Source: a virus. From it: a stretch of 23,620 bases of DNA. Under the pieces are notes generated by a model. The model had not been told where the DNA came from, ran no database searches, and saw nothing but the letters and a program-made list of their open reading frames with translations. Every line of letters begins with the position of its first letter. Position 1 is the stretch's first letter. Made by a program: the position numbers and the translations under genes. Location: IMG/VR virus record IMGVR_UViG_3300042507_000302, positions 1 to 23,620 of that record. One strand, written 5' to 3'. Positions 3,222-20,542 of this stretch are shown one piece after another.

Positions 3222-4467
3222 CTTCCAACTACTTAAGTGGCAGCAGGATGTCTTCAAGAGCGATAAACGGTTCAAGGTTGTAGCTGCTGGTCGTCGATGT
3301 GGTAAGTCTAGGTTGTCGGCAGTAACGCTTCTCATAGAGGCTCTAAACTGTCCTGAAGGCAGTCATGTGATGTATGTGGCTCCTACGCTAGGACAAGCAC
3401 GAACGATTATCTGGGATCTTCTACATGAGCTTGGAAGACCTGTAATCAAGAGCAGTCACGTTAACAACCTTGAGATCAGTCTTATCAACGGTAGAAAGAT
3501 TCTGATCAGAGGCGCAGACAATCCTGACAGTCTTCGTGGTGTGAGTTTAACATACTTAGTGTTGGACGAATGCGCCTTCATTAAAGAAGATGTATGGCAG
3601 AAGATTCTTCGTGCTGCATTGTCCGACAAAAAAGGTAGAGCTTTATTCATCTCAACTCCTAGCGGTAGAAACTGGTTCTACGATGTTTATAAGCTAGGGT
3701 TGTCGGATGAAGATGAAGAGTGGAAGGCATGGCACTTCACCACCCAAGATAACGAAACAATCGATCCTAAAGAAATTGAAGCTGCTAAACGAACACTAAG
3801 TTCCTTTGCTTTTAAGCAAGAGTACTTGAGTAGCTTTGACAACGCAGGTGCTGATGTCTTTAAGCAAGAATGGTTCAAGACAGCACCAGAGCCGCAGTAT
3901 GGCTCTTATGTCGTTGCTATTGACTTAGCAGGCTTTGAGGACGTAGGGTCTACTGCTAGCGCAGCAAAGAAGAGATTAGATGAATCAGCTATTGCTATTG
4001 TCAAGGTAACTGACAATGGTGATTGGTGGGTTAAAGAGATCAGACATGGACGATGGGATATCAGAACCACTGCTGTGAACATCCTAAAGTCCATCAGGGA
4101 TCATCAACCCATTGGTGTTGGTATTGAGCGTGGTTCATTAAAGAATGCAGTGTTACCGTATCTAACGGATCTGATGCGTAAAAACAACATCTATTCGCAC
4201 ATCACTGATCTGACACACGGTAACAAGAAGAAGGCTGAAAGAGTTGTGTGGGGTCTTCAGGGAAGACTTGAGCATGGTCGTATCAGCTTTAACGAGGACG
4301 AGGATTGGGAAGAGTTTGTCGATCAGCTTATCATGTTCCCTACAGCAGGTGTGCATGACGACTTGGTTGATGCTTTGTCCTATGTAGATCAATTAGCTGT
4401 TACTCCTTATCTTCAAGATTATGAAGAAGAAGAGTACGAAGTTTTTGACAAAATAGCGGGGTATTGA
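3208..4467 (+). CDS. terL: Terminase large subunit (packaging ATPase and nuclease)
   Basis: 419 residues from ATG at 3208, chosen over the preceding in-frame TTG because GGAGG lies 6 nt upstream of the ATG. The ATPase has Walker A GRRCGKS (28-34), Walker B YLVLDE (116-121) with catalytic Glu121, and coupling motif STPSG (149-153). The C-terminal RNase H-like nuclease shows VVAIDLAG with Asp239, a middle acidic motif GIERGS, and HDDLVDA near residue 388. The protein drives ATP-dependent DNA packaging into the prohead through the portal and cuts the concatemer. All key motifs are intact and the length is normal. Confidence 0.95.
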   Translation: MTSLNFQLLKWQQDVFKSDKRFKVVAAGRRCGKSRLSAVTLLIEALNCPEGSHVMYVAPTLGQARTIIWDLLHELGRPVIKSSHVNNLEISLINGRKILIRGADNPDSLRGVSLTYLVLDECAFIKEDVWQKILRAALSDKKGRALFISTPSGRNWFYDVYKLGLSDEDEEWKAWHFTTQDNETIDPKEIEAAKRTLSSFAFKQEYLSSFDNAGADVFKQEWFKTAPEPQYGSYVVAIDLAGFEDVGSTASAAKKRLDESAIAIVKVTDNGDWWVKEIRHGRWDIRTTAVNILKSIRDHQPIGVGIERGSLKNAVLPYLTDLMRKNNIYSHITDLTHGNKKKAERVVWGLQGRLEHGRISFNEDEDWEEFVDQLIMFPTAGVHDDLVDALSYVDQLAVTPYLQDYEEEEYEVFDKIAGY

Positions 4468-6488
4468 TGGACGATTATAACGACAAACCGCCTGAGAGCC
4501 TCTTTGAGGAACCTTCAGAAGAGGAACGTGAGTTAACTTCCTGGGTTGTTGACCACTGTGATCGGTGGCGTGACCATAGAGATTCTAACTTCCAAGAACT
4601 GTGGGAAGAATACGAGCGTATCTTCCGTGGTATTTGGGATGCTGCGGACAAGACCAGAGACTCTGAGCGTAGTCGTATCATCAGTCCTGCCACGCAGCAG
4701 GCTGTGGAGACCCGACATGCTGAGATCATGGAAGCTATCTTTGGTAACGGAGAGTTCTTTGATATCTCTGATGACCTCAAAGACATCGATGGCAACCCTC
4801 TGGACATTGAAGCCATCCGTAAACAGCTTCATGAAGACTTCAAGAAAGACAAGATCAAGAAGTCTGTAGACCAGATTGAGTTGATGGCTGAGATCTACGG
4901 TACTGGCATCGGTGAAATCCTTGTCGGTACTGAGATGGAATACACTCCTGCTACGCAACCGATGCCGGGGGTGCAAGCAGCAGCCATTGGTGTGTCGGAG
5001 TCTGAGCGTGTTACGGTCAAGATCAAGCCTGTAAACCCTAAGAATTTCCTTATTGACCCTAACGCAGACAGCATTGATGATGCTTTGGGTGTCGCTATTG
5101 AGAAGTATGTCTCAATTCACAAAGTAGTTGAGAACATTGAGAAGGGTATTTACAAGAAAGCCAACATCGGACCAGTGTATTCTGACGATGACTTGGAGCC
5201 TACGCAGGAACTTCGTACCTATCACGACGATAAGGTTAAGCTACTGACGTACTACGGCTTAGTTCCCAAAGAGTATCTGTATCCTGAAGAAGACGAATAC
5301 GAAGAGTTGTTCCCTGAAGGCTCAGAAGCAGACGAGCATTGCAACTTAGTTGAGGCTATTGTTGTGATTGCTAACGATGGTATCCTTCTAAAGGCTGAGG
5401 AAAGCCCGTACATGATGAAGGATCGTCCTGTGGTGGCCTATCAGGATGATACGGTGCCTGGACGCTTCTGGGGTCGCGGTACTGTTGAGAAGGCCTACAA
5501 CATGCAGAAGGCCATTGACGGTCAACTGCGTGCTCATATGGACTCTCTGGCCCTTACAACGGCTCCTATGATCGCTATGGACGCTACGCGACTGCCGCGT
5601 GGTGCCAAGTTTGAGATCAAGCCCGGTAAGGCTATTCTGACTAACGGTGCTCCAAGTGAAATCCTGTACCCGTTTAAGTTTGGTCAGACGGACGGTAATG
5701 CGGTGGCGGCTGCTCAGAACTTTGAGAGAATGCTTCTACAAGCTACTGGCACCGTTGACAGTGCTGGCATGCCTAGTAACGTACCCCGTGATGCTTCTGC
5801 CGGTGGTATGTCGATGGCTATGGCAGGAATTATCAAGAAGTATAAGCGAACCTTGACTAATTTCCAAGAAGATTTCATGATTCCGTTCATTAACAAGGCT
5901 GTATTCAGGTACATGCAGTTTGATCCTGAACGTTATCCTTCTGTGGATATGACGTTTGTGCCTACGGCAACGCTTGGTATCCTTGCTCGTGAGTTTGAAC
6001 AGCAACAGATGATTGCTTTGTTGCAGACTTTGGGGCCTGATACGCCTGTTCTGCCTCTGATCCTCAAGGGTATCCTTGAAAACAGTAGTTTGAGCAACCG
6101 TGGTGACTTGATTGCTGCACTGCAACAGATGAGTCAGCCTGATCCTGCTGCCCAAGAGGCTGCTATGGCTCAGCAACAGGCTCAAATGCAGCTTCTGGCA
6201 GCTCAAGTACAGGAATTGCAGGCTAAGGCTGCTAGAGAGTCTGCTGAAGCTCAAAAGGCTACTGTGGAGGCTCAGATTGCACCTCAAGTTGCACAAGCAA
6301 AATACATCGCTGCACTGTCTAACAACCTGAATGAAGACAACGAAAGCAAGGATTTTGAACGTCGAGTCAAACTTGCTGATATTGCCTTGAGGGAAAAGGA
6401 CATTGACAGCAATGAACGTATTGCTTTAGCTCAAATGGAAACAAAGCGCAAGGAAACGGAACGCTTTAATACAGCATTGGGTGAATAA
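4467..6488 (+). CDS. Portal protein
   Basis: 673 residues. The ATG at 4467 overlaps the TerL stop (ATGA type); an in-frame TTG precedes it. Identified from size, position directly after TerL and features typical of podovirus portals: acidic N-terminus, a helical core with ATQQAVETRHAEIMEAIFG near residue 80, KPVNPKNFLIDPNA near 185-200, and the stretch AGMPSNVPRDASAGGMSMAM near 430-450. The last 120 residues are Ala/Gln-rich and probably coiled-coil, like the C-terminal barrel seen in long portals. It forms the dodecameric ring at one capsid vertex through which DNA enters and leaves. Confidence 0.85.
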   Translation: MDDYNDKPPESLFEEPSEEERELTSWVVDHCDRWRDHRDSNFQELWEEYERIFRGIWDAADKTRDSERSRIISPATQQAVETRHAEIMEAIFGNGEFFDISDDLKDIDGNPLDIEAIRKQLHEDFKKDKIKKSVDQIELMAEIYGTGIGEILVGTEMEYTPATQPMPGVQAAAIGVSESERVTVKIKPVNPKNFLIDPNADSIDDALGVAIEKYVSIHKVVENIEKGIYKKANIGPVYSDDDLEPTQELRTYHDDKVKLLTYYGLVPKEYLYPEEDEYEELFPEGSEADEHCNLVEAIVVIANDGILLKAEESPYMMKDRPVVAYQDDTVPGRFWGRGTVEKAYNMQKAIDGQLRAHMDSLALTTAPMIAMDATRLPRGAKFEIKPGKAILTNGAPSEILYPFKFGQTDGNAVAAAQNFERMLLQATGTVDSAGMPSNVPRDASAGGMSMAMAGIIKKYKRTLTNFQEDFMIPFINKAVFRYMQFDPERYPSVDMTFVPTATLGILAREFEQQQMIALLQTLGPDTPVLPLILKGILENSSLSNRGDLIAALQQMSQPDPAAQEAAMAQQQAQMQLLAAQVQELQAKAARESAEAQKATVEAQIAPQVAQAKYIAALSNNLNEDNESKDFERRVKLADIALREKDIDSNERIALAQMETKRKETERFNTALGE

Positions 6489-7322: not shown

Positions 7323-7972
7323 GTTTACCTAACGACTCCATTGCTATTACCCCAGGCATCGGAGCAACAGTAGCAACACAACTTGTTTCTTCTAAAGAAT
7401 ATCAGGTTGTGATGCTTGCCATGCCTGATGGTCATTTAGCAAACTCATTACCGCAATACCGGATGATTTGTCCCAGCCAAACAGTTGGTGCCAATAAGGT
7501 GTATCTTGACTTTTTTAACGCTACTGGCAGCGGTGTATCGCTTCGTATCTTATCTGCGTATTGCTTTGCAGACAACGACACTGCTGTGACGGGTACGCTG
7601 GGTGTTGAAGTCAACTTAACCCGTACAACGGCAGTAGGTACTGGTGGTACGGCAGCAACCTCAAACGGTACTGCACTAAACGCCATTACACTGAGTACGA
7701 TGGACACCAACAATGCTGCATTGTCTGCAAACATTACAGCACGTTCAGCCCCTACAGGTGGTGCAACTGCTGGTGCTTTGTTGGGACAACGTTGGATCTT
7801 TACTGAAGAGACTAACGCTGCGACTGCTATTGCAGGTACGGCAGGTGCTGAGTTTGTTCGTAACGAAGGTGCTGACCTAATTGTTCGTGAAAACTCAGGC
7901 CTTCGCTTTGTGCAAGGTACTGTGGCTTCTGTCGGTAACTTATCATTTGAAATCACATTTGAGGTGTTCTAA
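7319..7972 (+). CDS. Unknown virion-type protein
   Basis: 217 residues. The ATG overlaps the previous stop (ATGA), and its own stop overlaps the next ATG (TAATG). It is a beta-rich protein with the core VYLDFFNATGSGVSLRILSA and a C-terminal part ENSGLRFVQGTVASVGNLSF ending FEITFEVF. Strand-rich, with no signal peptide and no cysteine cluster. Likely a decoration or appendage protein given its neighbours; I do not recognise a named family. A shared role with the 6948 and 7972 genes is inferred only from coupling. Confidence 0.65.
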   Translation: MSLPNDSIAITPGIGATVATQLVSSKEYQVVMLAMPDGHLANSLPQYRMICPSQTVGANKVYLDFFNATGSGVSLRILSAYCFADNDTAVTGTLGVEVNLTRTTAVGTGGTAATSNGTALNAITLSTMDTNNAALSANITARSAPTGGATAGALLGQRWIFTEETNAATAIAGTAGAEFVRNEGADLIVRENSGLRFVQGTVASVGNLSFEITFEVF

Positions 7973-8748
7973 TGGCACTGTTACTGCTACTTTCTCAAGG
8001 CGGTGGCAGTGCTCCTATAGGTGTAACAGGTACTTTAGCAGCTTCTGAAACAGGATCTGATGTATTTGCTTCTACCGGAACTATCAGAAGTAGCGGTACT
8101 TTAGCAGCCTCTGAAACAACTGCTGATAACTTAGCTTCTACAGGCTCAGTTAGAACTGTAGGTACTTTAGCGGCTTCTGAGACAGGTAGTGATACATTCA
8201 CAGCTACCGTTGATAATGCAATTACTGGTTCCTTAGCTGTTTCAGAAGCAGGTAATGATGCTTACAGTGCTGCGGGTTCCGTAGTCACTTCTGGTTCTTT
8301 ATCAGCCACTGAAGTAGGAAACGACACCCTTAGTGCTACAGGGTCAATAAGAACCACAGGTACTCTAGCAGTATCTGAAATAGGCAGTGATACCTTTACT
8401 AGTACTGGATTACTAAGTTATCAGGGAACATTAGCTACAACTGAAGGAAGCGATGTATTTGCTTCTACCGGCATCGTAGTTGTTGTTGGCTCTAAGGTAG
8501 CTAATGAATCGTTATCAGATTCTTTTGCAGCACTTGCTGAGATATTAAGCACTGGAACTGGTGATTTAGCTGAAGTAGGTGCAGACGTTTTTGCTGCTAC
8601 AGGAACAGTAGTTATTCCTGTCACAGGCTCTTTTGCTGCTACTGAATCAGGCGGAGGTGTTCCTTTCGGTGGCGTCTCTGCTGTCTTGAAGTACTGGAAT
8701 GGTTCTTCATGGCAAGTTCTTTACAAAGACCCCACCATTTACACTTAA
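7972..8748 (+). CDS. Tandem 22-residue repeat virion protein
   Basis: 258 residues. After a hydrophobic start (MALLLLLSQGGG), residues 20-218 consist of nine head-to-tail units, followed by a partial one to about residue 230. The consensus is G-T/S-L-A-A/V-S-E-x-G-S-D-x-F-x-S-T-G-x, of which the first is GTLAASETGSDVFASTGTIR. Most units are exactly 22 residues (66 bp); one is 21 and one 24. The C-terminus (VLKYWNGSSWQVLYKDPTIY) is a separate aromatic segment. The regular beta-type repeats suggest an elongated, solenoid-like appendage whose length can change by gain or loss of units. No enzymatic motif. Stop/start overlap with the previous gene supports co-translation. Confidence 0.75.
   Translation: MALLLLLSQGGGSAPIGVTGTLAASETGSDVFASTGTIRSSGTLAASETTADNLASTGSVRTVGTLAASETGSDTFTATVDNAITGSLAVSEAGNDAYSAAGSVVTSGSLSATEVGNDTLSATGSIRTTGTLAVSEIGSDTFTSTGLLSYQGTLATTEGSDVFASTGIVVVVGSKVANESLSDSFAALAEILSTGTGDLAEVGADVFAATGTVVIPVTGSFAATESGGGVPFGGVSAVLKYWNGSSWQVLYKDPTIYT
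8029..8661 (+). repeat. 66-bp coding tandem repeats
   Basis: Nine diverged units plus a partial one, within the 7972-8748 gene, each starting with a Gly-Thr/Ser-Leu-type codon set (for example GGTACTTTAGCAGC at 8029, and similar words about every 66 bp). Units are related at the protein level more than at the DNA level. Confidence 0.7.
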
Positions 8749-10410: not shown

Positions 10411-11965
10411 ATGGCTGTTTCCAATGGCGCTTACGGTAGTGCTAACAACGTAACGACTACCACCGCTGCTTCGTTTATCCCAGAAGTTTGGTTGTCGTAA
10501 TGGCCAAATAAAAACCGTTTCTGAATAACTGGGAAGGGCGTAGAAAACCCTAATCAGAGGGAACACGAAATACCAAAGTCGCAATTCACTACAGGAGGTA
10601 GTATGAAGCGAGTAAGTTGGAAGTATTTAGCAGGATTGATTGACGGCGAAGGTTGTATTGACCTCGCCACGACAAAAGTAAACGAACAGTTCTACATTCA
10701 GCCGCGTATGCGTATAGGCATGGCGAATGTTGCACAGTTTTTACTGGTACAGTGTCAAGCCAACTTCGGCGGGCATCTGGAACATCGTGAAAGCAAGAAC
10801 GATAAGTGGCAAAACTCCACTTCTTGGACATTATCTGGCTACAAAGCAGCTTGTCCCGTTCTTCGCAATGTTGTTAATCATCTTATCTTGAAGAAAGAAC
10901 AAGCTCGGTTTTGTCTTTGGATGGAGACAAACTTGAAGGGTACACGGCTTCAGCAAGAAGTGCTGGATGCTGTACGAGAAGAGCTTAAGCTAATGAAGCG
11001 TGACCCGCACAGACTAAGTGAAACGGCTCAAGAGCATATTCTAATGCTTTTGGGAAGCTATAGTCGAAAGGATTGAAAAATCCTTAGCAGACGAAGTTAT
11101 CGCTGCCTACAAGAAGAATCTTGTGATGGCAAATCTGGTTCGCAAGATGAACCACAAGGGCAAGAAGGGTGACACGATCAACATCCCGATGCCCAGCCGT
11201 GCTGTGGCTCAGGCTAAGGGCGCTAACGCTACCGTCAAGATTCAGCAAGACACTGAGTCTAACGTGCAGGTTCTCATCAACAAGCACTTCGAAGTGTCGC
11301 GTCTGATCGAAGACATCGTGTCGGTGCAGGCTCTGTCCTCGCTGCGTCGGTTCTACACTGATGACGCTGGCTACGCTCTGGCTCGTCAAGTGGACACGGA
11401 TCTGATCCAGTTGGGTCGCTCTGCCAACAACGGTGCTGGCACCAACGTGTACGCTACCGCCTTTGCTGGTGGCAACGGTACGACCGCTTATGTGGCTGCT
11501 TCTAATAACGAATCCGCTCTGACCGATGCCGGTATCCGTCGTATGATTCAGCGTCTGGACGACAACGATCTGCCGATGGAAGACCGCTTCCTGATCGTTC
11601 CTCCGTCTGCTCGCAACACGCTGATGGGCATTGCTCGTTACACTGAGCAGGCTTTCGTTGGTGAAGGCGGTGCTGCTAACACGATCCGCAATGGTCGTAT
11701 TGGTAACGTGTACGGCGTGGAAGTCTACGTGACTCCTAACTGCGACACGACCTCTGGCTCTGGCGCTGCTCGTATCGCTCTGTTGTTCCAGAAGGAAGCT
11801 CTGGTGCTGGCTGAGCAAATGGGTGTGCGTTCGCAGACTCAGTACAAGCAAGAGTACCTGGGTGACCTGCTGACGGTTGACACGCTGTACGGTGTGCAGA
11901 TTGTCCGTAAGGGCGATGACGCCGATGTGCCCACGGGTGCGTTCGCTATCGCTGTTCCGGCCTAA
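10411..11965 (+). CDS. Major capsid protein, split by a group I intron
   Basis: Joined from exon 1 (10411-10492) and exon 2 (11088-11965): 960 nt, 319 residues. SD AAGGAG 7 nt before the ATG. Exon 1 encodes MAVSNGAYGSANNVTTTTAA then SFIPEVW; exon 2 continues in phase with Ser28 (split codon T|CA), then DEVIAAYKKNLVMANLVRKM. Unspliced mRNA stops at TAA 10498-10500 after 29 codons, so capsid production depends on splicing. The exon 2 sequence (HKGKKGDTINIPMPSRAVAQ, DDAGYALARQVDTDLIQLGR) is typical of the HK97-fold capsid proteins of T7-related phages, from memory. GC and codon use are more biased than in neighbours, as expected for the most expressed gene. A terminator follows 9 nt after the stop. 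Confidence 0.92.
10493..11087 (+). ncRNA. Group I self-splicing intron in the capsid gene
   Basis: 595 nt. P1: exon GTTTGGT (10486-10492) pairs with GCCAAAT (10503-10509), giving the required U-G pair at the 5' splice site. P3: CCGTTTC (10515-10521) with GAAACGG (11020-11026). P4: CTGG/TCAG (10529-10532, 10554-10557). P5: AGGG/CCCT (10535-10538, 10548-10551). P6: GGG+CACG (10559-10567) with CGTG+CCC (10999-11006). P7: GACTA/TAGTC (11012-11016, 11061-11065). P8: AAGAGCAT/ATGCTTTT (11030-11037, 11044-11051). P9: AAGGATT, GAAA loop, AATCCTT (11068-11085). It ends in G at 11087. The endonuclease gene lies in the P6 loop. Subgroup not assigned. Confidence 0.92.
10603..11076 (+). CDS. LAGLIDADG homing endonuclease of the intron
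   Basis: 157 residues with a strong SD (AGGAGG, 4 nt before the ATG). One clear motif YLAGLIDGEG at residues 8-17, with Glu16 in the position of the catalytic acid. A single motif implies a homodimer cutting a roughly palindromic site. The rest has the usual mixed helix/strand pattern (SWTLSGYKAACPVLRNVVNH). It would cut intronless capsid genes near the exon junction and so spread the intron by repair. The gene starts inside the P6 loop, and its 3' end contains P6, P3, P7, P8 and part of P9 (stop at 11074-11076), so the same bases are under protein and RNA constraint. Confidence 0.9.
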   Translation: MKRVSWKYLAGLIDGEGCIDLATTKVNEQFYIQPRMRIGMANVAQFLLVQCQANFGGHLEHRESKNDKWQNSTSWTLSGYKAACPVLRNVVNHLILKKEQARFCLWMETNLKGTRLQQEVLDAVREELKLMKRDPHRLSETAQEHILMLLGSYSRKD

Positions 11966-12408: not shown

Positions 12409-12564
12409 ATGAAGTGGAAATGTAAACTTACCGGTAACGTAATTGAGTTTACCGAAGATCATGACAACGATGCAATGAAGACCCATGACGGGTATGAGCT
12501 TCTTGTCGAAGATAAAGAACAACCTGAGGTGCGTCGAGGACGACCTCCTAAAGAGGATAAGTAA
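12409..12564 (+). CDS. 51-residue protein with AT-hook-like basic tail
   Basis: Short gene between the hairpin and the long tail gene: ATG 12409, TAA 12562-12564, SD GGAGG 5-6 nt upstream. It reads MKWKCKLTGNVIEFTEDHDN and ends with RRGRPPKEDK. The end resembles an AT-hook core (GRP) and could bind DNA, but the rest is acidic. The last base of its stop is the first base of the next ATG. Function unknown; its position among head and tail genes suggests a small virion or assembly role. Confidence 0.7.
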   Translation: MKWKCKLTGNVIEFTEDHDNDAMKTHDGYELLVEDKEQPEVRRGRPPKEDK

Positions 12565-14759
12565 TGATTCCTGTAACCTATCCATCGTCAGTCAGTACCA
12601 GTAAAGAATCACAGATGGTTGTATTCGCTCTGCCCAGTGTTACTGGTCTTCAGCGGTGGACGGATTACATTCCTGTGAAGTTGCAAGCAACTGGTGCGGA
12701 CATTGCTAACTCTTTTAATACCAACGGATATCTTGCTTGTGACTTCTTAGTTACCACTACTGGCAAACAGGCATGGATTGACTACATTCCTGTGTTTGTA
12801 GACAATGCTGCAACTACTGCTTGGCAGGTATCAGATACTGGTTTTATTCCTTTTAATACGCTTGCTGGTGGTGGTTTATACTACTTAGGCCCTTCGTTAG
12901 ATTTGAACTTTGTTGGTTCATTGTCTAACCCTTTGTTTGCTTCTACGGCTGAAGATTACACCTTAAATACTAACTTTCTTTCTTTATTCTATCAGGTAGA
13001 AGCACAGTATTCTGTTCAAGGCCCTACCGGGATTGAACAAAAGAACTTCGCCGACATCGTGACGTTCACGCGGGGCAGTAATGCCACGCAGTTTGACTCT
13101 ACCGGCACGTTGGTATACGCGCCGATGAATGCGATCCGCAACAACATGATGGTTGGTGCGGTGCCCCCATCAACATTTCCGACCAACTGGCAAAGCGTGC
13201 TTGTGGCGGGGTTGACTTCAACTGTCGTAGGCACTGGCACGCTGAATGGCATTACCTACCTTGATGTTCGTGTCAATGGCACGCCTTCAGTCTCGTCGTA
13301 CTACAACCTTGTGCCGGACATTTTGGTCGCCGGGTTGTCTGGACAGGCGTGGACAGGGAGTTTTTGGGCGGCCATAGTCGGTGGATCACTGGCTAACACA
13401 AATGCAAACATCGAACTAAGAGAGTCAGACGCTGTTCAAGGTTTCTTGACCAATTCTCTGACAAATATTGCAATTACATCATCTCTTACAAGATACTCGC
13501 AAGTTAGAACCCTGAACAACGCAGCAACAGCGTTTGTTTCAGTTCGATTTGTATGGCAGGTAACGTCTGGTCAGCCAGTTGACTTTACTCTGCGCATCGG
13601 CATGCCGCAGCTAGAGCTTGGCTCTGTGGCAACCGCGGTGAATGCGACTTCAGGCACAGCCTACTATGGCCCCCGCTTCGACTACAACCCTTCGACGCTT
13701 GCTGCACAGGGTTTGTTGATTGAGGAGTCCCGCACCAATTCCATCCGCAATAACACCGCTCAAGGGGCGGTAGCTGGGACGCCTGGGACGCTGCCGACGA
13801 ATTGGACGATTCTTGGCATCGGGCTTGGAACTTTAACGCAGCAAGTAGTTGGAACGGGAACGACAAACGGCGTCAACTATATTGACTATCGTGTAAGCGG
13901 GACGACCAGCACAACCGGCTTCACGCTTAGTTTTGAACAAGCTGCACAAATTGTTGCAGTGAATGGTCAAACATGGGCAAGCTCGGCTTGGGCTTCTTTA
14001 ATTGGCGGTTCCACAACAAACATAAATGCATTAAATCTAACCATTGATGGGCGTACAGCGGCGGGGGCGTTTGTTGGAGCAGTCAATAATCTGAGTTTGT
14101 TAGGCGTAACTTCAACGCTTACAAGGTACACAAGTACCGGAACTATCGCTAACGCATCTGTAGAGCGAGTCGTTTTAGGCATAGCGTTCGGATTTGCCTC
14201 CGGTGTCACCATCGACATCACCTTGCGTATTGGATTACCTCAGCTAGAGCAAGGTGCCTTCGCAACGAGCGTGATCCCCACCACGACCACAGCCCTCACG
14301 CGCTCTGCTGATGTGGCGTCGGTGAATACGTTGTCGCCTTGGTATAACGCGACGGAAGGTACTGCTTATGCAGAGGTCGCTTTAATTGGCCTGTCTGCAA
14401 CAGCAAACCAAAATGCGCTGCAATTTTCTGATGGAACATCAAGCAATCGCATTGCGTTGTACAGACAAAGTTCGGCTCTGAGCACTGCGCTGTCGTTTGG
14501 TGCGACCATAAACGGTTCTTCATGGACCACAACTGCAATCAGAAAAATTGCACTTGGAAACAAATCTGGTGATTCAGCTTTGGCGGATAGCGGCGCGATT
14601 GCTGGGACTGGTGTTGGCACTACGGTTCAAAACGTAAATCAGTTGCGACTTGGTTCAAACCATGACGGGACTGGTGGTTTCTTCAACGGCTACCTCCGCC
14701 GCATCACCTACTACCCTCGGAGACTCAGTAACGCTGATCTCCAAACTATAACTACTTAA
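12564..14759 (+). CDS. Large receptor-binding/tail protein with duplicated lectin-like domains
   Basis: 731 residues; ATG overlaps the upstream stop. Residues 1-155 (PSSVSTSKESQMVVFALPSV and on) differ in style and are probably the virion-binding part. Then come two related beta-rich blocks, about 185-370 and 385-580. Each begins with an IRNN sequence, contains P-T-N-W and VVGTGT-NG motifs, and ends with an LRIG-PQLE motif. The C-terminus (about 590-731) resembles concanavalin/LamG-type folds, ending YLRRITYYPRRLSNADLQTI. Such proteins bind sugars on the host surface. GC rises from about 13020 onward. The same domains recur in the next gene. Confidence 0.75.
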   Translation: MIPVTYPSSVSTSKESQMVVFALPSVTGLQRWTDYIPVKLQATGADIANSFNTNGYLACDFLVTTTGKQAWIDYIPVFVDNAATTAWQVSDTGFIPFNTLAGGGLYYLGPSLDLNFVGSLSNPLFASTAEDYTLNTNFLSLFYQVEAQYSVQGPTGIEQKNFADIVTFTRGSNATQFDSTGTLVYAPMNAIRNNMMVGAVPPSTFPTNWQSVLVAGLTSTVVGTGTLNGITYLDVRVNGTPSVSSYYNLVPDILVAGLSGQAWTGSFWAAIVGGSLANTNANIELRESDAVQGFLTNSLTNIAITSSLTRYSQVRTLNNAATAFVSVRFVWQVTSGQPVDFTLRIGMPQLELGSVATAVNATSGTAYYGPRFDYNPSTLAAQGLLIEESRTNSIRNNTAQGAVAGTPGTLPTNWTILGIGLGTLTQQVVGTGTTNGVNYIDYRVSGTTSTTGFTLSFEQAAQIVAVNGQTWASSAWASLIGGSTTNINALNLTIDGRTAAGAFVGAVNNLSLLGVTSTLTRYTSTGTIANASVERVVLGIAFGFASGVTIDITLRIGLPQLEQGAFATSVIPTTTTALTRSADVASVNTLSPWYNATEGTAYAEVALIGLSATANQNALQFSDGTSSNRIALYRQSSALSTALSFGATINGSSWTTTAIRKIALGNKSGDSALADSGAIAGTGVGTTVQNVNQLRLGSNHDGTGGFFNGYLRRITYYPRRLSNADLQTITT

Positions 14760-14774
14760 CGGGAGGAGAAGATC

Positions 14775-15989
14775 ATGGCACTCGTCACTAAAAACTTCAG
14801 CGACATCATCACCTTCACCCGTGCGTCCACGGCCACGTTCTTCAACTCGGCTGGGGTGCTGACCAGCGCAGCAACCAACGCCCCACGCCTCGACTACAAC
14901 CCCAGCACGCTGGCGGCTCAGGGGCTGCTGATTGAAGAGTCCCGCACCAATTCCATCCGCAACAACACGATGGTAGGAGCGGTGGCAGGCACGCCGGGGA
15001 CGTTGCCGACGAATTGGGCGACTGCAAGTCTTGGCACGCTGACCCAGCAGGTAGTTGGCACCGGAACCAGTAATGGGATTACTTACATCGATATCCGTCT
15101 TAGTGGCACGACCAGCACAACTCAGTTTTCATTAAGGTTGGAGCCTAACGGAACCGCTGCAATTCCGGCAGTCAATGGTCAGACATGGACTGGTTCGGCG
15201 TGGTTAGCACTTGTTGGCGGAAGCACAACAAATATCTCGCAGGTTGGTCAGAGCGGATTACTGTGGGACGCGGGGGGCGCGTTTCTTGGTGGGGGCTACG
15301 CAGGCCCACTCAGTCCATCCTCGATAACTGCAAACCTCACAAGATTTACGGCTTCAGGCACAAACGCCATTGTCGGAACTGCTTTTATACAGCCGCAAAT
15401 TTATTTCGTGTTTGCCTCTGGCGTCGCCATCGACATCACCTTACGCATCGGCCTGCCGCAGCTAGAGCTTGGCTCGTTTGCCACCTCCGTCATCCCCACC
15501 ACCACCACCGCGCTGACCCGTGCAGCCGATGTGGCTTCAGTGAATACGTTGTCGCCTTGGTATAACGCGAGTGCTGGTAGCTTTTATGTGGAAGCAACGG
15601 TGGCCCCTGGGCTGTCGGCCTTCCCTAACACCATTGCTGTTAACGATGGCACGGTTAATAACCGGATTATTTCTTACTTGTTCACAAACGGTTTTTACTC
15701 ATCAATAACTACCGGCGGTGCATCTCAGGGAACAGGTGGATTAGTAACACCACCAACTGTTGGCGCGGCGTCTAAATTTGCTTTTGCTTACGCCACAAAC
15801 CGCCTTCAAGGTGCTGCCAATGGCGCGGCGGGCACAGAAGACACAACAGTCACTTTGCCGTCTGGATTGAACATTATGAGAATTGGTGCGGTTTCTGCGA
15901 CCACCAATTTTTATAACTCTCACATACAGAGAATTACTTACTATCCGCGTTCATTGTCACAAGCGGAACTCATCTCCATTACGACATGA
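14775..15989 (+). CDS. Second lectin-like tail protein, paralogue of the previous gene
   Basis: 404 residues, SD GGAGGAG. It starts MALVTKNFSDIITFTRASTA, then PRLDYNPSTLAAQGLLIEES, matching the middle of the preceding protein, and continues with one beta-block ending LRIGLPQLELG and FATSVIPTTTTALTR, then a LamG-like C-terminus ending YYPRSLSQAELISITT. It lacks the 155-residue N-terminal region of its neighbour. Both DNA and protein are alike: a 31-nt identical run (14322-14352 and 15540-15570) marks recent duplication or recombination. Probably a co-assembling or alternative receptor-binding component. Its end overlaps the next ATG. Confidence 0.75.
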   Translation: MALVTKNFSDIITFTRASTATFFNSAGVLTSAATNAPRLDYNPSTLAAQGLLIEESRTNSIRNNTMVGAVAGTPGTLPTNWATASLGTLTQQVVGTGTSNGITYIDIRLSGTTSTTQFSLRLEPNGTAAIPAVNGQTWTGSAWLALVGGSTTNISQVGQSGLLWDAGGAFLGGGYAGPLSPSSITANLTRFTASGTNAIVGTAFIQPQIYFVFASGVAIDITLRIGLPQLELGSFATSVIPTTTTALTRAADVASVNTLSPWYNASAGSFYVEATVAPGLSAFPNTIAVNDGTVNNRIISYLFTNGFYSSITTGGASQGTGGLVTPPTVGAASKFAFAYATNRLQGAANGAAGTEDTTVTLPSGLNIMRIGAVSATTNFYNSHIQRITYYPRSLSQAELISITT

Positions 15990-19891: not shown

Positions 19892-20542
19892 ATGTCTTCT
19901 ACTTACTTACAACTTGTTAACAATGTACTTGTAAGGCTTAGGGAAAATGAAGTATCTAGTGTGTCGGATACTCCTTATAGTAGTCTTATTGGTATTTTAG
20001 TCAATGACGCTAAACGAGAAGTTGAAGACGCACATGACTGGAATTGCCTGTCTGAGACTATTGTAATCCCTACAGTGGCAGGAACGAGTGCGTATACTTT
20101 AACAGGCTCAGGACAACGATTCACCACTGGTGATGTTCTTAACGACACCAGTGACTATGCTCTTGATCAGGCTCCTAGAGCATGGATGAATCGTCAGTTC
20201 TATATCAGTCCTACGATGAGCAAGGCACCTGAGTACTATGTGTACGATGGTGTCTCTGGTGACGATACTGTTGTCAAGGTTTGGCCTATTCCAGACAATG
20301 TGTATAGTCTTCGCTTTGAATTAAAAGTACCTCAAGTAGACTTGTCTGCCAATGCAGATGTCCTTAAAGTTCCTGCTCACTTGATTGTACTCTTAGCGCA
20401 TGCTAAGGCTATCTCAGAGCGTGGTGAAGACTCAGGACAACCTTTTGCGGAACTCTATCAGCAGTATCGTCTTGCCTTGGCTGATGCTATTGCACTGGAG
20501 CGTAACAGGTACAATGAGGATGTTGTCTGGACGGACATCTAA
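19892..20542 (+). CDS. Tail tubular protein A-like (head-tail adaptor)
   Basis: 216 residues, SD GAAGGA. The pattern matches the podovirus gp11 family: MSSTYLQLVNNVLVRLRENE at the start, ILVNDAKREVEDAHDWN (about residues 34-50), VKVWPIPDNVYSLRFELK (about 128-147), and a helical C-terminus with LAHAKAISERGED. In that family it forms the ring joining portal and nozzle. Its stop shares a base with the ATG of the nozzle-type gene, the same A-then-B order as T7 11-12. Confidence 0.8.
   Translation: MSSTYLQLVNNVLVRLRENEVSSVSDTPYSSLIGILVNDAKREVEDAHDWNCLSETIVIPTVAGTSAYTLTGSGQRFTTGDVLNDTSDYALDQAPRAWMNRQFYISPTMSKAPEYYVYDGVSGDDTVVKVWPIPDNVYSLRFELKVPQVDLSANADVLKVPAHLIVLLAHAKAISERGEDSGQPFAELYQQYRLALADAIALERNRYNEDVVWTDI

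Follow-up and report, generated by a model that had tools for sequence, protein, structure and literature searches.

The capsid gene and its insert

The major capsid gene in the stretch of viral DNA analysed here (23,620 nt of IMG/VR record IMGVR_UViG_3300042507_000302, hereafter the window) is divided by an insert, for which the sequence supports a group I intron as the best reading. The gene and its insert comprise three parts:

10411..10492, + strand: capsid exon 1, ending at U10492, the first base of a Ser codon, as placed from the sequence and from intronless relatives
10493..11087, + strand: group I intron as read here, 595 nt, with a terminal G
11088..11965, + strand: capsid exon 2 including the stop codon, matching the major head protein families PHROG 267 (1.1e-39) and PF19821 (5.9e-11)

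The capsid reading frame opens at ATG 10411, meets an in-frame TAA at 10498-10500, resumes at C11088, and ends with the stop codon at 11963-11965. With the 5' splice site after U10492, which pairs with G10503 (U10492.G10503), and with G11087 closing the intron, the exons join into a frame of 960 nt that encodes 319 aa plus stop, and the join restores the phase (T plus CA, Ser). An earlier note on this DNA had placed the exon 1 stop at 10498-10500 and the continuation at 11088, with the same restored Ser codon and the same terminal G; the coordinates agree everywhere we checked, and the phase and terminal G are borne out by the sequence. It had also described the spliced protein as continuous. 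Among the 80 best exon-2 relatives in IMG/VR, a sample that does not give a frequency of intron carriage, the motif F-x-P-x-x-W-S-D is uninterrupted in 77, and the other three end at a contig edge. All 77 readable relatives run unbroken through the join into the start of exon 2, as the continuous protein would require. The end of exon 1 is likewise conserved among intronless relatives.

A nucleotide search of named phages found no relative, and the capsids matched in protein searches were all below 60% identity. The window's portal (4464-6488) and adaptor (19892-20542) genes match SU10 phage families (PF23899 and PF24175), which suggests a podovirus-like phage. Two neighbouring ORFs, 12564-14759 and 14775-15989, have long stretches in common, e.g., GLLIEESRTNSIRNNT, and thus look like duplication paralogues. 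The ORF at 7972-8748 consists mostly of degenerate repeats of the type GTLAASETGSDTFTSTG.

RNA structure of the intron

The helices assigned to the intron are as follows, where percentages and counts refer to the aligned relatives described below:

10486..10509, + strand: P1, exon 10486-10492 with guide 10503-10509, 7 bp, U10492.G10503 at the splice site
10501..10502, + strand: 5' side of P10, whose partners are 11088-11089 in exon 2; this helix has just 2 bp in the window
10515..10521, + strand: 5' strand of P3, with 11020-11026; paired in 24/24, four covarying pairs
10529..10557, + strand: P4 (10529-10532/10554-10557) and P5 (10536-10538/10548-10550)
10559..10567, + strand: 5' strand of P6, with 10999-11006; four covarying pairs, one sequence each
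10999..11006, + strand: 3' strand of P6, doubling as endonuclease codons
11012..11016, + strand: 5' strand of P7, with 11061-11065, doubling as endonuclease codons
11020..11026, + strand: 3' strand of P3, doubling as endonuclease codons, including that of residue 141
11029..11052, + strand: P8, 11029-11037 with 11044-11052; 87.9% of cells paired
11061..11065, + strand: 3' strand of P7, pairing with 11012-11016
11070..11083, + strand: P9 hairpin, 11070-11074 with 11079-11083; 80.8% of cells paired, the weakest helix

Relatives of the intron-encoded protein were collected by a protein search, which gave 42 loci on 41 contigs. Both intron ends are present in 37 of these loci (one end is missing in L006, L039, L040, L041, and L042); together with the window, they form a set of 38 introns, 25 of which are distinct at their ends. 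The ends were found by a script that required a U at the exon end, a terminal G, an open frame, and the FxPxxW motif. It gave exactly one solution in 34 of the 37 loci and none for L008, L031, and L032; the solution for L038 was wrong, and the ends of these four loci were placed by hand. All 38 introns have a U at the exon end (this U and the P1 G were required by the search), and all 38 end in G, which was a search requirement in 34 and was seen in the four placed by hand. P1 measures 6–7 bp in every intron, with one pair in L037 involving an N. P1 and P10 were counted by script because P1 is misaligned between site types in our alignment (A1). The mean P10 length over the 25 distinct introns was 4.56 bp, compared with 0.24–2.64 bp when the exon was slid by 1–3 bases, 0.95 bp at downstream positions chosen at random (maximum over 1000 draws: 2.12), and 0.09 bp with exons from another site.

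Covariation was assessed in 24 of the 38 introns over 40 pairs of P3–P9. Overall, 95.1% of cells were paired, reaching 100% in P3, P4, P5, P6, and P7. Changes on both sides occurred in 22 of the 40 pairs (117 cells), compared with 9–30 cells for slid 3' partners, and none of 500 shuffles reached 117. The count of further pair types was less striking (41 versus 36.2 in shuffles, with 11 of 500 shuffles as high). Covariation was seen in P3, P5 (all three pairs), P6, P7, P8, and P9; P4 is nearly invariant, and as P4 and P7 hardly vary, they say little. In addition, a 641-nt stretch folded 4.1 sd below the mean of 20 shuffles. The helices that the earlier note had proposed, namely P1 with a U-G pair at the splice site, P3, P6, P7, P8, and P9, are all present, and the P3–P9 core covaries; the note had not mentioned the 2-bp P10, the 157-aa endonuclease ORF, or the hairpin at the endonuclease Shine-Dalgarno.

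The group I reading follows from the precise join, the P1 and P10 matched to the exon, the covarying P3–P9, the terminal G, and the relatives free of the insert. The intron would split the major capsid gene within the codon for Ser in FIPEVW-S-DEV. Once transcribed, the RNA would fold (P1–P10) and remove itself through two transesterifications, leaving the message for the 319-aa capsid protein. As far as can be judged from sequence, the RNA element very probably cuts itself out of the capsid message, and many uncultured phages probably rely on splicing to make the protein most abundant in their virions.

The search with the Rfam group I covariance model, which the earlier note had suggested as a check, stayed below threshold: RF00028 scored 13.8 bits in the window versus a gathering cut-off of 50 (E 0.92). 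At the gathering level, Rfam gave nothing in the window and no match in 19 relatives, and a relaxed scan of 12 relatives (E up to 5) gave eight matches, none of them to RF00028. This cut-off is a database threshold, not a defining feature of group I introns, and we take the low score to result from the ORF in P6, which splits the core. The intron thus illustrates why a standard family model can miss such cases, as the endonuclease frame fills P6 and continues through the core. Rfam isrG gave sub-threshold matches to each strand of L018 (6059-6703), the best with E 2.9e-6 and 37.1 of 100 bits; the stretch may be repetitive.

The intron-encoded endonuclease

Two further features lie within the intron:

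10603..11076, + strand: LAGLIDADG homing endonuclease ORF, 157 aa, within P6 and overlapping the 3' core
10588..10602, + strand: hairpin ACUAC-AGGAG-GUAGU, adjoining the endonuclease start codon, with the Shine-Dalgarno in the loop

The ORF is the likely reason for the presence and spread of the intron. Its motif reads LAGLIDGEG, with an acidic last position, and the protein matches PF00961 (27.6 bits versus 23.1, 5.8e-6); E16, the last acid of the LAGLIDADG motif, is invariant in 23 of 23 sequences. A profile of the endonuclease family matches LAGLIDADG chains in the PDB (best 8.3e-6; I-CvuI 7.4e-5). The predicted fold has a pLDDT of 91.7, with only two of five models above 90, and I-CvuI (5a72, E 4.7e-9), I-CreI, and I-MsoI led the Foldseek matches (TM about 0.6). 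The label of HNH endonuclease (PHROG 5046) is contradicted by the Pfam and fold results. The protein resembles I-CreI, I-CvuI, and I-MsoI in length, single motif, and predicted fold, but differs from them in its identity (below 25%), in the overlap of its ORF 3' end with the ribozyme core, and in having a phage capsid target. The single motif, together with the pattern of intron occupancy, suggests that the endonuclease cuts the intronless allele as a dimer. Probably as an I-CreI-like homodimer, it would cut intronless capsid alleles at the conserved coding stretch, and repair of the cut allele would copy the intron in.

The 3' end of the endonuclease gene doubles as P6', P7, P3', and P8. When pairs of the 27 distinct ORFs have the same amino acid, they use the same codon with a share of 0.93 (2885/3107) at codons 131-140 and 0.88 at codons 1-10, compared with 0.36-0.48 at codons 31-90; the share is 0.59 at codons 141-150, which lie over P3' and the variable P8. 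Residue 141 varies (T, K, Q, S, E, or R), and its codon is part of P3', paired in all 24 introns, so that the helix appears to set the residue. Overlap of an intron core by endonuclease ORFs is known in principle, as treated in parts of an earlier paper (PMC3984707). In L002, L015, L024, and L025, the endonuclease frame is 162 aa long and its stop codon finishes in exon 2, 4 nt beyond the 3' splice site; only unspliced RNA would thus contain the complete frame.

The stem sequence of the start-codon hairpin changes, and its pairing is kept in most of the 14 distinct upstream sequences (21 loci). The mean stem length is 5.07 bp versus 3.22 bp in shuffled sequences (0 of 300 as high), with a poor fit in L026 and L034. 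RNA structure at the ribosome-binding site is a likeness to the T4 intron endonucleases (I-TevI and others), whose ribosome-binding sites are hidden by RNA structure according to the sections we used (PMC2988022). Unlike those cases, the window has another endonuclease family and other genes, and its short hairpin abuts the start codon.

Probable mobility, capsid restriction, and splice positions

Endonuclease protein identity exceeded exon-2 protein identity in 392 of 406 pairs (29 distinct loci), and at third codon positions the endonuclease genes were more alike than the capsid genes in 250 of 276 pairs (24 loci). For example, L003 and L010 are alike at 0.98 of third positions in their endonuclease genes and at 0.54 in their capsid genes. 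The identities of the two proteins also correlate with each other (rho 0.80, 406 pairs), and hence the history may be partly one of shared descent.

We examined where related introns lie by three kinds of search. From an endonuclease profile search, of which the best 80 of 106 relatives were kept, a capsid match accompanied 39 of the 43 new viral loci tested, the identity of these capsids falling to about 20%. Of the other four, L168 precedes a PHROG 267 frame; in L182 and L187, the exon motif was seen by eye, in part through other loci on the same contigs. At L199 (2490-3245), an endonuclease relative (41%) lies just before a capsid gene that is seemingly uninterrupted at FLPEIWS, with no intron visible, and this relative is possibly a free-standing form. 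A scan for the core motif listed 80 of 94 stretches, all 80 of which were examined: 76 had both endonuclease and capsid matches, one had a capsid match only, and three had an endonuclease match only. These three could also be placed in a capsid gene: in L233, an EIWSDEV exon can still be read before the sequence stops, the contig of L263 gave its capsid match under the handle L197, and L224 and L168 are one contig. Scanning for the P4–P6 motif, which is independent of the protein, listed 80 of 90 stretches, with both matches in 63, an endonuclease match only in eight, and neither in nine. Five of these nine are introns cut by a contig end; the other four (L298, L300, L311, and L314), judged by eye, lack any further sign of an intron and were counted as chance matches.

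None of the matches listed places an intron of this core type in another gene; among them, such introns were seen only at this capsid stretch. The wider endonuclease family is not bound to capsids: among named phages, its nearest relatives (19 records, identity up to 44%) sit in genes that carry the annotation DNA methylase or endonuclease. A scan of genome contigs gave six weak endonuclease matches, none with a capsid match. A whole intron lineage is tied to one capsid coding stretch, in phages that are often very different.

The splice position varies within this stretch. Four positions fall within 10 bp: B (between FIP and EVW), and, 6, 7, and 10 bp downstream of it, C (between V and W), D, and A (following base 1 of the Ser codon). 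Sorted by 3' exon, the core-motif loci (80 of 94, near-copies included) comprised 63 at B, 15 at A, one at C, and one unclassified, the last being the contig of L160, at site D. The guide sequence and P10 fit the local exon at all four positions. The B rows are scattered across the endonuclease tree, in which a single change accounts for A (weak support of 55/86, with A forming one group in 59% of 200 bootstrap trees) and another for C; the simplest reading of this tree, which is midpoint-rooted only, is that B is the ancestral position.

Introns at A and B also occur in nearly identical genes. L308 (site A) is identical to L281 over 1,245 nt upstream, and it matches two site B loci, L231 and L315, at 98.2% over 1,111 nt and 98.5% over 1,233 nt, respectively. 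L231 and L281 are 99.8% identical in exon 2 over 900 nt, whereas their endonucleases agree in just 91 of 147 residues; the coding letters around both sites are identical but for one synonymous base, in the P1 of the B intron. Related introns at four positions, two of them in near-identical genes, amount to a natural experiment on splice-site change.

Some genes carry two introns. At L160 (2310-3910), introns at D (591 nt) and A (915 nt) are separated by a 3-nt exon, GGT, and the joined frame reads TFIPEIWSDEIIAAY. The second encodes a 250-aa two-motif LAGLIDADG endonuclease, which in a search matched its own contig only; its P1 has 4 bp if the first intron is removed before, and otherwise 3 bp, and its P10 has 2 bp. 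At L168 (2390-3900), a second group I-like intron, seen by eye, lies about 32 nt downstream of a B intron and has a 256-aa ORF matching PHROG 5046.

Taken as a whole, it is likely that the element is a homing group I intron that specialises in a single coding stretch of the capsid gene, where its splice position can shift. At least two such changes probably took place inside a single endonuclease target, through re-fitting of P1 and P10. More tentatively, we propose a joint picture, to which as a whole we give slightly less than an even chance: the 10-bp stretch, kept in very divergent capsids, may be an arena of competing introns, in which a capsid-bound lineage shifts its splice position a few bases at a time inside one target by rewriting P1 and P10, and in which rivals displace or exclude each other and occasionally stack around a 3-nt exon. 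Introns at neighbouring positions make such competition among mobile introns directly testable.

A different account needs no shift: distinct introns at neighbouring positions may have swapped endonuclease genes. Movement of endonuclease genes between introns at neighbouring sites has been described for rDNA, in the portion of that work drawn on here (PMC1299323), the unity of site A in our tree is weak, and the second intron of L160, at site A, has a different endonuclease. We regard the swap as a genuine possibility but lean to doubt it, as the A and B introns have both the endonuclease (up to 87% to that of the window) and the core RNA in common and differ mainly in P1, P9, and P10; the endonuclease ORF is interlocked with the core, so both would need to move together. 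The capsid introns are like the rDNA introns and endonuclease genes of the same source (PMC1299323) in that related elements occupy insertion sites close together. The difference is that the capsid positions are spaced by 1 to 10 bp within a single protein-coding phage gene, and that two of these positions are used in genes that are nearly identical.

It is also conceivable that the intron splices but has lost homing, with an inactive endonuclease and a pattern left by old inheritance and losses. The correlation between endonuclease and capsid identities would fit such a history, but the intact motif and frame, the invariant E16, the third positions of L003 and L010, and the different introns in nearly identical genes make it unlikely. 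We consider it very improbable that the insert is a non-splicing remnant, with the virion protein made from exon 2 only by way of an internal start, e.g., GTG 11123, where the exon 2 frame opens: a dead element would not keep a P1 and P10 that match the exon or core helices that covary, intronless relatives conserve the end of exon 1, and no Shine-Dalgarno is visible by eye ahead of 11123. An intein, suggested by the LAGLIDADG protein that many inteins also encode, or translational bypassing can practically be dismissed, as the frame ends 6 nt into the insert with the stop at 10498-10500, exon 2 is in another frame, and the RNA structure accounts for the ends of the insert.

The homing intron that we favour is ordinary in kind and unusual in pattern, its type being seen at one capsid stretch with a varying splice position. 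Capsid introns are known from single phages. The intron in the capsid gene of mycobacteriophage LittleE (JF937101), for which splicing was shown by RT-PCR and N-terminal sequencing, and that of Tuc2009, named in the same paper, precede the present one (PMC3706429), and the novelty of a capsid-gene intron that the earlier note had implied is therefore not right. According to the parts of that paper used here, the LittleE intron is also group I-like, lies near the N-terminal part of the major capsid gene, carries an I-CreI-like LAGLIDADG ORF, and occurs in one phage of its cluster (PMC3706429). The window intron shares with it neither the strand of the ORF, which is the opposite one in LittleE, nor the insertion point, which is GG-Y-AVPPLW there and thus a different sequence; the LittleE ORF and the endonuclease of the window are 28% identical over 72 residues. 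The huge Jug phages have many group I introns, in essential genes, with splicing partly supported by metatranscriptomes, and the genes named in the sections consulted are terL, nrdD, and DNA polymerase, with no capsid gene among them (PMC12363816). In the open-access literature, with subscription papers mostly outside the scope, we found no description of this intron lineage or of its shifted positions, and the lineage looks new. The LittleE intron (L297, 921-1770) lies just before AVPPLW, which may correspond to FIPEVW of the window; one region of the capsid gene might be preferred by two introns that are unrelated to each other.
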